Source: Apiospora phragmitis (taxonomy: Eukaryota > Ascomycota > Sordariomycetes > Amphisphaeriales > Apiosporaceae). From it: DNA of 64,000 nucleotides. Within the stretch, counting starts at the first letter, position 1. Each line of letters begins with the position of its first letter. The notes beneath the pieces are model-generated. The model was given only the letters and a program-made list of their open reading frames with translations, had not been told where the DNA came from and searched no databases. Positions 8,679-27,893 of this stretch are shown here, in pieces. The DNA is taken from NCBI GenBank assembly GCA_038363925.1, contig JAQQWL010000012.1, forward strand, positions 580,834 through 644,833, in the 5' to 3' direction. The position numbers and the translations under genes were made by a program.

Positions 8679-11600
8679 TCAAGGCTCGAATTGCAGAGCC
8701 TCACTCACCCCCTGCTCAAGCGATATCCACCCATCCCTTCCTGTCCACTTTTTCAGAAGCTTCAGCAACCGGTCTTGGTCTTCCTTCCCGATGGTGGCCA
8801 AGCAAAGTCCTTGCGAAGGGAGGTCCTCCATGAATTGTTGGTCTCGGTGTTGGCTGCACAGGATGGCCAAAACCACATTCACGTTCAAGGGTTCGGCCGC
8901 GGCGAGTAGTCTATCCCCCTTGATATCGGGGTCCAAGACAGCGGTAATGTGCAGAGCGGACACATCTTGGACGTTCACCTGGCATCCTTTTAGTTGTACG
9001 TATTAGTTAACGTAACCCACGGTCCAACTGACCACACGGTCTAAATGACTACCTTTAAAGACTTCATCTAATAAAGTATAAGTTAATTCCGCTACAACGT
9101 ATTTAATATCTTAAAATTAATCGGAATCCTTATCTCTAGATACTTCTACATTATTTTAATAAGTACGAGCATTATGTCCGGGCTCTCCGTAGATTCTATA
9201 GCGTTGTGAGCGCGTTTTAAACGTCCTCGTACGACTACTCTTTTAACGCGATTCGTTTTATAATTATTTATTAATATTCTTTTAAAACTATAAGTCTTTT
9301 TTAGCTTATATACGAAGTGATCTTTTATTTTATAACCGTTTCTTTTTTATACGGCGGCGCTGGCTAAGTATTTTATTCGCCTTTTATAATACGGTTACTT
9401 TATTTTTTAATAAAGCGAGCCGGTATATAACTTACGTTATACCTTTCGTAGTTTAATTAAGTTTAGTTTAAAATTAATATTAGAGAGCTATTTTAATATC
9501 GCGTAATTTAATTTTTAATGTACTCGGTTTAAAATTAAGTTTTAATTAAATTATTTAAAGTTTTTAATTTTTAAAGTATAAATAAGTCGAAAGAGGTCGT
9601 TAAAGGCGTCGATATACGTAGCTTTATATTTAATTATAAAATAATATATTCCGGATTATATAATATAAATCCTACCCCTTAGAAACTTTTTTAAATATTT
9701 AAAACGATAAAAGTGACCTAGTGTTACGAACGAGCCTAACTTATGCGACTAGCCCCACCCCGGACACGGCGCTAGAATAACTCGAGGCGCTTATTAACTT
9801 AACTAGCTACACTAATTACGAAAGCTACCCTACGAGCCCTTTTATTAACGAAACTCGCCTATTAATTATAATAATTAATACTATAATAATTAAAAATAAT
9901 ATAACTACTTTAAACTAGTATTTAAAGGATAATACGAAATAAATAACTAAGAATAAATAACTATAATAAAATAATACTCGGTTATATAAAAATACGAAAT
10001 AAAAACGCCGCGTAATAAAGCTTTAAGAATTAATTAATAATACTTAATTAAGTAATATTAAATAATATTAATTATAATTAAATAGCCGTAAAATAATATT
10101 TATATTAATAAAAAAAGAATTAAATATATAACGACAAATATTACTTATATATTTTATATAAATACTTTTTATTTTAATAATTAATTTAAATATTAATCTA
10201 ATTTATTAATAAAGTAAATAACTTTAATAACCTTATTATAAATACTTTTAAATTTATATACCTTAATTACTTTTATTTTTACGGCTATTATATATTATAT
10301 TAATAAACGCGGACTTTAATTACACGTTTAAATACTCTTTTATATTATTAAATATAAACTTTAATACGCTTTATTAAGTTTTTTTTAAAACTTAAATAAT
10401 ATTCGTTATATTTTAATCACTTTTATTTTTGCGAGTTATTATTTAAATCCTTAAGTAATAATACTTATAAGAATTATGTTTATACTTAAATTTAATAATA
10501 CCCCTCGTTACGAGAAGGCCCCCGCCACTACTTTAAATACCTCTTAGCGAGATCTTACTATAGAGGTGGATAGTGATAATAATAACGACGACCTTACCCG
10601 ATAGGTATTAGTTAAGTAAATTAAGGAATTTAAATAAAAAAGTACTAATTATTAATATTATTATATTAAACTCGAAAAAAAGTAACGAACTCCTCATTAA
10701 GAATACTTTAGAATAAATACTAGATATTAACGAGCTACGCAAAGAAGTACGCTTTTTCGCACCGCCGCTAATATTATTTAAACCTTTATTACCTTAAAAA
10801 AAGGTATAAAGATTAATACCATAATAACTTTTAACGAGATAAGTAAAAATCTCTAAAGATTCCTTATTTATATTAAAACTTATTAACGGTTTTATAAAAA
10901 GATATTTTAAAATATTATTTAACGAGTTATTTACGCCGCCTTGTTTTTTAAAAGTAAAGTACTTGCTTAGTTTAAACCTTATTTAAACGAATTAATAAAG
11001 AACCATTAATAAGTTAAGCTATACCGCGTAAAGGTATAACGAATTTTCGAAAATTACGATAGTTTCGAATAAGCTTTTAAATCACTTTTTTAAAACCCCG
11101 ATAAAAAACGATAAATAAAAAAAGAATTAAAGACTTTTAAGTAAAAAAGATTAACCGCCTTTTACACCGCCGAATTCCGATGTATTATAGCTCGACTAAA
11201 TTATACCGAAGTTACGAAGGTTATAATATATTATTAAGGATTAAAAGAAGACGTTAAGAATGAACTTAGCCGGCTTAATACCCTTAATAATTTCCTTTTA
11301 TATATAGAGTTTATTATTAAGATCGATACTTATATATACGAATATCGCCGCGAGAAATAAGGCGGATAATAACGGTAGAGTAATTAAGTTTAAGCTAATA
11401 TAAGATAACTATGTTATTATAGCGGACTTATAGATTTTAATGCTATTAAATATATTAAATATATATTACGGCCAACGGTTGTCTCCCGTGCGGGGTAACG
11501 CTTATAGTATAGAATTGGATAGAAATGACCTGTCTAGTTATTTCCGAAGCTTTTAGTTTTATAGCGTAGTAGTTAATCTATACGTACTGTAACATAATGA

Positions 11601-26600: not shown

Positions 26601-27893
26601 AATACCGTTAAAAAGTTCTTAAAATCGAGGGGTATCTAAACGATTAAGTAGCCGGTATATTTACCTGATCTAAATCCTATTAAATAAGTTTAAAAAGCTT
26701 TAAAGGTTAAAATCTATAAAATTAAGCCTTCTTTTTAAAACTTAAAAAATAACATGCCACACCAAGTCTATGCGAGAGAGGTAGTCTAGTCGGCGTGGGC
26801 AGCTTTAGATCTAGGCCTTATTTATAGACTTTTACGTTCTCTCCTTCGTCGCCTTTTTACTATACGTCGCGTTAAGGGCTGGTATAATTATTATTAAAAT
26901 TTATTAAATTAGCTACGTAATAATATAAACTTTTATTAAATTCTCTATTAATTTAGGTATATTATTAATATTTAAACATAGGTGGTATTAGAGGGGGGAA
27001 TCGGCTGAAAGTGGCCCTTGCGCAGACTTTTGGACACTGATTTTATTAAGAATTGCGGGAAAATGATTAGTTGGACCGTGTGGTCAGTTGAACCGTGGGG
27101 TACGTTAGCTGTCAATGTATTGCATTACTAGCACGAGGAAATGCAATATACACCCACCAAAAGGTTTCACACCACTCACTCTCGGCTCGCCGTGGTAGAC
27201 GTTACGAACCCAGCCTGCCGAGCCTTGCAGATGGCGCTTGTGCATGACCGGCCCCAGTATGAAGATTGGGTTCACTGATGAGACCGTGAACCCAGGATTC
27301 GTGTCTTCAATAAACCGGAACATGACCCGTTCGGCCTCCACTTTGCTCGCAGCATACACTTTACCACCTCGCTCGGGCATATACGGCGGCGGAGACCAAG
27401 CTGCTTCTATTGCGGCATCGTTCCACACGTCTTTTGTCAAGATGGCCGGGATCGCAACTCGGGGCGAGTACGCAGCACCAATGGAGGAGGTGTAGACGAA
27501 CCTCTGCGCACTGGGCACGAGGGCCGCCGCTTGGAGTAGGCTCGAGATGGTTTGGACGACGGGCGTAATCACATTGCTGGGGTCCGGGTCGAAACTCATG
27601 GGCGTGGCGGTGTGGATTATAGCGCTGGGCCGACTTTCGAAAATGATGCCGTGGAACGCATTCGGAGCCGCCAAGTCCGGGATCTCCACGAGGTCGAAAA
27701 CGCCGGCTTCGGTAAAGGAGGCAAACAGCTCTTCGGTGAGCCAAGCGGCCTGGGGGAGATTGCGTACGACACCGCGGCCGCGGTAGCCGCGCTCGAGTAG
27801 ATCCTTGGCTGTGTACGAAGCAACGTATGAAGTGATTCCAGTGATGAGGACCAGGGAACCCGTTGGGACTGCGGTGGGATGATGGCCAGCCAT
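8679..27893 (-). CDS. extended short-chain dehydrogenase/reductase with an 18-kb transposon-filled intron
   Basis: Exon 1 (27,893-27,158) begins MAGHHPTAVPTGSLVLITG. It has the Rossmann glycine motif ITGITSYVASYTAKDLLERG, the TATPMSF and YTSSIGAAY segments, and the catalytic YAASK. Exon 2 (8,986-8,679) supplies the family's usual C-terminus: VNVQDVSALHITAVLDPDIK, a WTSL-type segment (GRDGWISLEQ) and the stop at 8,679. The donor GTGGGT after 27,158 and the acceptor ACTAAAAG before 8,986 join the exons in phase: 736 + 308 = 1,044 nt, a 347-aa protein, the normal size for NAD(P)H-dependent aldehyde/keto reductases of the GRE2/dihydroflavonol-reductase type. The intron of 18,171 nt consists of about 73 nt of host intron plus the transposon nest. 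Neither exon shows frameshifts or RIP damage. Whether the long intron is spliced is unknown; if it is not, the gene is inactivated. Substrate is unknown. Confidence 0.8.
9722..10410 (+). repeat. 5' LTR of gypsy element A
   Basis: This 689-bp copy matches the 3' LTR at 23,590-24,312 apart from RIP transitions and a 34-bp gap. Its terminal TA (10,409-10,410) corresponds to CA in the 3' copy, as expected from CpA-to-TpA mutation. Confidence 0.88.
11464..11950 (+). mobile_element. 487-bp miniature LTR element (TRIM-like) inside gypsy A
   Basis: Two 131-bp direct repeats (11,464-11,594 and 11,820-11,950) flank 225 bp of non-coding sequence. The repeat starts TGTTAC and ends GTAACA, inverted termini; RIP forms TATTAC and ATAATA occur at the damaged ends. 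A 5-bp duplication ATATA flanks the unit (11,459-11,463 and 11,951-11,955). A purine tract AGAGAGGAGGCATAG directly precedes the second repeat, as a polypurine tract would. I see no clear primer-binding site. The repeats contain a tRNA-like A box (11,562-11,578; 11,918-11,934) and the internal part a B box GGTTCGATTC (11,630-11,639). The flanks are AT-rich, so the ATATA duplication alone is weak, but equal repeat lengths and termini support an element. It is visibly less RIP-mutated than its surroundings. Confidence 0.75.
15406..16017 (+). repeat. 5' LTR of gypsy element B
   Basis: 612 bp, the same length as the 3' copy at 21,223-21,834. Its first part (about 270 bp) is unrelated to LTR A, whereas the remainder is clearly related to LTR A, so the two families share only the downstream part of the LTR. 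Confidence 0.88.
21223..21834 (+). repeat. 3' LTR of gypsy element B
   Basis: 612 bp; ends TTACA directly before the TACCG target duplication. A purine-rich tract (AGAAAAAGGAGG) lies just upstream at about 21,208-21,219 as the polypurine tract. Confidence 0.88.
23590..24312 (+). repeat. 3' LTR of gypsy element A
   Basis: 723 bp, ending GCGTTCGTTACA directly before the CCTAG duplication. It carries a 34-bp segment absent from the 5' LTR around 23,730-23,765. Confidence 0.88.
24876..25125. mobile_element. solo LTR (250 bp) inside the Fot1-like transposase
   Basis: The segment begins TGTAAGGG and ends CATAACA (TG...CA termini) and is clearly less AT-rich than its surroundings. It interrupts the transposase at its DETGF motif. 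Flanks GCCGG (24,871-24,875) and GCCTG (25,126-25,130) agree at four of five positions, and keeping one copy rejoins the motif in frame. No internal retrotransposon coding is present, hence solo LTR; the family is not recognised. Confidence 0.7.
25663..27040 (+). mobile_element. Tc1/mariner-like DNA transposon relic
   Basis: Inverted termini share AAAAGTCTGCGCAAGG: left near 25,674-25,690, right as CCTTGCGCAGACTTTTGG near 27,015-27,032. Element size is about 1.38 kb, typical of Tc1 elements. On the plus strand a RIP-degraded transposase is readable: DAKERLEFCRYW and the FSDECTI Asp motif near 26,190-26,300, then VYLPDLNPIK (the SPDLNPIE motif of the family) near 26,650-26,680, and a C-terminal AWAALD...SLLRRL segment near 26,790-26,850. 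Stop codons interrupt it throughout. It inserted near the 5' end of the Fot1-like element, leaving about 65 bp of that element to its right. The exact ends are uncertain by a few bases. Confidence 0.8.

Follow-up and report, generated by a model that had tools for sequence, protein, structure and literature searches.

A nest of transposons in a short conserved intron of an aldehyde-reductase-like gene of Apiospora phragmitis: intact exons in a probably disrupted gene

Results

The window analysed in our study was a stretch of 64,000 nucleotides (nt) of Apiospora phragmitis (contig JAQQWL010000012.1, positions 580,834 to 644,833), and it was found to contain a minus-strand gene for an aldehyde-reductase-like protein, the two exons of which are separated by an intron filled with nested transposons. 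Exon 1 (27158–27893) encoded residues 1–245 and the first nucleotide of codon 246, and exon 2 (8679–8986) encoded about 100 C-terminal residues and the stop codon. In-phase joining of the minus-strand exons 27,893–27,158 and 8,986–8,679 (736 + 308 = 1,044 nt) gave a product of 347 amino acids (aa); the exon coordinates, phase and product length put forward in a preliminary description of the locus were exact.

The 347-aa protein matched the Pfam family Epimerase (PF01370, E 8.4e-10). Over residues 8–342 it matched the solved structures of a ketoreductase (9phg, E 1.4e-47) and of aldehyde reductase II (1ujm, E 5e-46). Tyr180 and Lys184 of the YxxxK motif, invariant in the alignment, were retained in exon 1. 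By full-length similarity and by its Rossmann and YxxxK motifs, the protein is an aldehyde-reductase-II-like extended short-chain dehydrogenase/reductase. The full-length similarity and the Epimerase domain are shared with PDB 1ujm and 9phg, whereas the conserved residues 289, 290, 293 and 295 were altered in the A. phragmitis protein, the reductase activity of which is putative. The top match among 45 homologues was a protein of Apiospora rasikravindrae, with 77% identity over the full query, and five further entries among the first eight were from named Apiospora.

In the A. phragmitis genome (52.67 Mb, 19 contigs), exon 1 had a single DNA match. In a protein search, each exon had a single near-identical place, the remaining places being at most 49% identical. 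Two different genes, or an intact second copy, are not supported by this result and were rejected, and the earlier claim of one gene rather than two was upheld. The 262-aa homologue P0005 was found to be a read-through of the exon 1 donor, ending at an in-frame TAA 16 codons past it. P0005 is a public six-frame-type prediction of the reductase locus, and exon 2 would escape automated annotation.

The intron (8987–27157, minus strand) was 18,171 nt long, with the donor GTGGGT beginning at 27157 and the acceptor AAG finishing at 8987. The junction PFG|CQVNVQDV, read across 18 kb, was the same as in relatives, and both position and phase matched theirs, as for a conserved spliceosomal intron. The homologue P0004 contained 20 extra residues, which correspond to a retained 60-nt intron in an unspliced translation. 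Two paralogues (C2:5,117,0xx and C15:1,283,8xx) each contained an intron at the same place, about 59 nt long in the first and 79 nt in the second, with a GTAAGT donor in both (two of two examined; boundaries placed by eye). Judged from these alignments, the intron is short and old as a position, normally of about 60–80 bases. An alternative in-phase pair, with donor GTGAGT at 27179 and acceptor CAG at 8979 (337 aa), was rejected; it drops ten residues that the relatives have, and the pair 27,158/8,986 is therefore preferred.

The donors of relatives were deduced from translations of unspliced DNA, in which the residue after the junction Gly was Glu in P0004, P0016–P0020 and P0023 and Lys in P0021 and P0025. 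These nine relatives imply donors starting with GTGA or GTAA, so that GTGGGT differs at position +4. P0030 and P0037 had Lys at the junction after Ser or Cys, and P0036 stops there and is uninformative. By this comparison the donor of A. phragmitis is derived relative to those of its relatives. GTGGGT is weaker than the fungal donor consensus, and the derived donor is probably weaker than the relatives' donors.

The outer element of the nest was a DNA transposon at 9010–27105, which with its nested elements spans 18,096 nt. Its inverted ends (40 nt, 90% complementary) are followed by the dinucleotide TA on both sides, at 9008–9009 and 27106–27107. Subtraction of the element and one TA leaves 18,171 - 18,096 - 2 = 73 nt, which agrees with the TA-bounded nest and the remnant of about 73 nt described previously. 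The original intron is represented by a 5' part at 27106–27157 (52 nt including one TA copy, with a GCTAAC motif formed at the TA) and a 3' part at 8987–9009 (23 nt including the other copy, with a branch-like ACTAAT motif upstream of AAG), both on the minus strand. On the transcript strand the insertion TA lies within a GCTAAC/ACTAAT stretch that looks like a branch site. Because the TA was duplicated on insertion, the acceptor side retains ACTAAT about 15 nt before AAG.

The pieces of the outer transposon itself, 9010–9721, 24313–24876, 25122–25662 and 27043–27105, sum to about 1.9 kb. Of 670 candidates for the family, 40 were scored (89 matched pieces), and 37 loci, several of which overlap the same place, were given for the adjoining test. 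The sequences on either side of breakpoint 9,721|24,313 were contiguous in 30 of the 37 loci and those at 24,876|25,122 in 31, so the pieces belong to a single DNA transposon, about 1.9 kb long, split by later insertions. Contiguity was found in 2/37 loci for the flanks of long terminal repeat (LTR) element B (15,405|21,828) and in 4/37 for those of a second DNA transposon (25,662|27,043). The outer element has inverted ends, a TA target duplication, a size of about 1.9 kb and multiple copies, and from its ends, target and size we take it to be Fot1/pogo-like. Its reading frame was mutated by repeat-induced point mutation (RIP), and two short open pieces examined for a DDE transposase had no Pfam match. 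At five other loci with near-intact ends, one of them a short remnant (L025), no open frame of at least 90 aa reached the transposon end, in a sample too small for a base rate of genic insertions.

LTR element A (9722–24312; LTRs 9722–10410 and 23590–24312) is bounded by an intact 5-bp target duplication, CCTAG, and houses element B and short elements. Element B (15406–21834; LTRs 15406–16017 and 21223–21834) is bounded by the duplication CACCG/TACCG. Both contained paired LTRs, ends of the TG..CA type and 5-bp duplications, one TG and one CA being mutated by transition. A stop-free piece of element B (19085–19321, plus strand) resembles by eye what we assume to be a Ty3/gypsy reverse transcriptase, and it had no Pfam match at 0.01; in all, five open transposon pieces were searched against Pfam and none matched. 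The second DNA transposon (25663–27042), with inverted ends at 25661–25695 and 27011–27045 (83%), lies within the outer one and is presumably Tc1-like, judging from its ends and size. A short inserted element of about 245 bp (24877–25121) was also present in the outer transposon. Less AT-rich short repeats were found within element A (11460–11950; two 127-bp copies at 11466 and 11822, 90%), and similar pieces lay beside other transposon copies. These repeats contained the stretch GGTTCGATTC, which we take to be reminiscent of a tRNA-type B box; ARAGORN and Rfam gave no match to it, nor to any other part of the window.

The RIP indices of the nest were 1.42 for TpA/ApT and 0.24 for (CpA+TpG)/(ApC+GpT), against 0.62 and 1.10 in exon 1 and 0.33 and 1.47 in exon 2, respectively. 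The observed/expected ratios of CpA and CpG were 0.22 and 2.46 in the nest and 1.15 and 0.90 at 28–62 kb. RIP at 9010–27105 depleted CpA/TpG and left CpG spared. Judged from its dinucleotide composition, the nest is mutated by CpA-directed RIP. The RIP-type nested insertion at a TA proposed in the preliminary description is supported. On the sense strand of the intron the motif AATAAA occurred 59 times, whereas mononucleotide shuffles contained 23.4, although much of this excess comes from the RIP dinucleotide bias, which such shuffles lose.

The age of the nest was estimated from the transversions between the LTRs of each pair, because RIP yields transitions only. Transitions dominated in both pairs, the ratio of transitions to transversions being 107:6 in pair A (2 gaps in 689 sites) and 78:2 in pair B (no gap in 612 sites). 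For element A this corresponds to 0.009–0.019 neutral changes per site per lineage at total:transversion ratios of 2, 3 or 4. Since A is nested in the outer transposon, the latter is the older of the two. In simulations of neutral drift of the exons, G and C were given a 1.5-fold weight for mutation, and indels were set at 0.083 of substitutions, a value derived from these LTRs; two thirds of the indels were taken to shift the frame. At the age of A, 10–20 substitutions were expected in the two exons. The probability of intact exons was 0.43, 0.30 and 0.19 for the older pair A and 0.69, 0.59 and 0.50 for the younger pair B at transition:transversion ratios of 1, 2 and 3, respectively. These are upper-side estimates, since the age of A is a minimum for the insertion. 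By the transversion clock the nest is fairly young.

In an LG+G4 tree, the root-to-tip distance within Apiospora was about 0.22 for the A. phragmitis protein, 0.20–0.23 for A. marii, A. saccharicola, A. arundinis and A. kogelbergensis, 0.11 for A. rasikravindrae and 0.16 for A. hydei (P0014, with its frame-shifted tail masked). The placement of the A. phragmitis sequence was weakly supported (50 and 66). Changes at conserved sites were counted in an alignment of the spliced protein with 11 homologues (P0001–4 and P0007–13) of the 45 found; P0005, the frame-shifted P0014, P0006 with its odd internal segment and all others were left out, and only columns with at least 9 residues were kept. Among the sites on which the remaining sequences of the alignment agree, A. 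phragmitis was changed at 5/82 in exon 1 and 6/37 in exon 2, including the four residues 289, 290, 293 and 295. The six other Apiospora together were changed at 14/470 and 4/187 sites, respectively. The excess in exon 2, a post hoc comparison sought once the alignment was seen, had a Fisher p of 0.0018, or 0.0071 against all 11 others (14/352). The exon 2 changes are a weak sign of relaxed constraint, and they may have arisen before the insertion.

A neighbouring eIF2D-like protein was 85% identical to that of A. hydei. Judged by locus tags, the distance between the reductase and eIF2D genes is 14 genes in A. hydei (PG997_002505 and PG997_002491) and 18 genes in A. marii (PG991_001532 and PG991_001514), and it is about 8 kb here; from this proximity in both species the locus is probably orthologous. 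For another conserved neighbour, a HAD protein, no named Apiospora was found among the best 120 of 398 matches. TTAGGG telomere repeats at 63919–64000 close both the window and the contig (644,833 bases), and AT-rich subtelomeric DNA precedes them at 62.0–63.9 kb. In a paralogue 45% identical to the reductase (L004, G000:C2:5116308-5117218), an in-frame TAG replaces the codon just before the ASK motif, and this second family member may be broken. The A. hydei orthologue P0014 (PG997_002505) departs from the family sequence within exon 2, by a frame shift or an annotation artefact, which may hint that the gene is dispensable in the genus.

Discussion

In our study, the 18-kb length of the intron, its RIP with the heterochromatin expected of it, and the weakened donor are the grounds for regarding the gene as most likely young and disrupted. 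We consider it probable that the exons are those of a gene disrupted too recently for them to have lost their integrity, with a truncated 262-aa product at best. As the sequence shows, a TA-targeting DNA transposon entered the branch-site region of the short conserved intron in a single-copy aldehyde-reductase-like gene, further elements inserted within the outer transposon, and the repeats were mutated at CpA by RIP. According to the LTR transversion clock, the insertion is recent enough for the exons to have escaped decay.

The normal enzyme would no longer be made from such a gene. An 18-kb intron would lie beyond the normal reach of fungal intron definition, and RIP-mutated AT-rich DNA would tend to heterochromatin and stop elongation. 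A block to elongation by methylated DNA in Neurospora was reportedly described by Rountree and Selker in 1997. Transcripts of exon 1 would cross the weakened donor to the stop 16 codons on (262 aa, without about 100 C-terminal residues), or would alternatively terminate at A-rich signals in the nest. The subtelomeric position, about 36 kb from the chromosome end, is a further reason to expect low expression; in Neurospora, subtelomeric regions are described as silenced through H3K9 methylation (PMC2596135). Splice sites of fungi are recognised chiefly across the intron, and the mean intron length is about 58–241 nt in the species tabulated in PMC2397502; fungal mean intron lengths are not above 1 kb according to PMC8476143. 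A survey of 625 fungal genomes found a depletion of young transposons in genes, introns not being resolvable in that study (PMC6416283).

Several observations weigh against a disrupted gene, and most of them would suit a gene that still works, with the entire 18-kb intron transcribed and then spliced out, either all at once or in portions. The start, stop, frame and phase, the YxxxK motif and the splice dinucleotides are all intact, the branch-like ACTAAT survives about 15 nt upstream of the acceptor, and the RIP signature is absent from both exons, with no leakage into them. A whole-gene acceleration of rate was sought in the reductase tree, and the A. phragmitis branch was not raised, its root-to-tip rate being normal. 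Exon 1 had no excess of changes (p = 0.18 and 0.46). The exon 2 excess had a p of 0.018 when scaled by branch length and of 0.23 when the 289–295 cluster was counted as one event. Internal decoy splice sites were not enriched over shuffles (GTRAGT 7 against 9.7, YAG 415 against 473), and are thus unexceptional for the length of the intron. A working gene might perhaps be aided by chromatin factors that let the polymerase pass, by analogy with the IBM2-type factors of plants, and rice genes with heterochromatic introns are transcribed (PMC7145194). However, the young age already accounts for the intact exons, the donor is derived, and the open-access literature searched, as far as its text was available, gave no fungal precedent. 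Given the neutral simulations, the intactness of the exons favours function by about 2- to 5-fold at most, not decisively. A gene that still works is therefore unlikely in our judgement, and we think it quite unlikely that the gene is expressed with its 18-kb, RIP-mutated, heterochromatic intron accurately removed.

These results modify two statements of the preliminary description. It had held the protein to be without any defect. This is true of the frame, the stops and the splice dinucleotides, but not of the donor, which is derived and probably weaker than in relatives, nor of the stretch 289–295, in which four conserved residues were changed. It had also found the intact exons striking. 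Their intactness was confirmed, but neutral drift leaves exons intact in 19–43% of cases for the older LTR pair and in 50–69% for the younger. Of the three options it offered (splicing across heterochromatin, an insertion very recent relative to exon decay, or exons kept by other means), the few LTR transversions favour the recent insertion, and the derived donor and the exon 2 changes point weakly against function.

The nest may also be polymorphic, being present only in the sequenced isolate while selection acts on the gene of the species through empty alleles. This would be compatible with a disrupted gene, the nest is young, the orthologues of six further Apiospora, counted as named species or isolates, cluster with the A. 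phragmitis gene, and the reductase and eIF2D genes lie near each other in A. hydei, in A. marii and here, so that the ancestral locus was uninterrupted. No second isolate of the species was found, however, and P0005 represents one sequence; we regard polymorphism as improbable. That the 18-kb join is an assembly artefact is highly improbable. The region is repeat-rich, but the two halves are collinear, on the same strand, matched in phase and each single in the genome, and the matched inverted ends, the TA on both sides and the correctly nested duplications are marks of real insertions.

A young disrupted gene, as we read the locus, has in common with the ascomycete genes disrupted by RIP-mutated transposons the nested, CpA-depleted TA-targeting DNA transposons and LTR elements, whereas here the insertion is intronic and every coding base is kept. 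Transposons in an intron and intact exons are shared with the IBM2/EDM2-dependent heterochromatic-intron genes of plants, in which transcription across the intron is demonstrated, whereas the A. phragmitis gene is known from sequence alone; heterochromatic introns are tolerated in more than 10% of rice genes (PMC7145194). The large introns of Arabidopsis, of 5–10 kb, are likewise kilobase introns in a short-intron organism, and their splicing is demonstrated (PMC5575664), whereas the A. phragmitis intron is 18 kb long, RIP-mutated and a sequence-level observation. In the open-access literature searched, as far as its text was available, no spliced intron of such size was reported for a filamentous fungus, although this does not prove that none exists.

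The locus is a warning for annotation, as the automated 262-aa open reading frame P0005 seems complete, yet is a read-through of exon 1. Because the coding bases and splice dinucleotides survive around RIP-mutated DNA, the locus separates the question of splicing across 18 kb from ordinary exon disruption. If the intron is not spliced, the locus would date a gene loss caught ahead of exon decay. If it is spliced, the limits assumed for intron definition and for elongation through heterochromatin in fungi would need revising; accurate removal would make this a working intron far beyond the length usual in filamentous fungi, and would imply a fungal pathway of transcription and splicing through heterochromatin.

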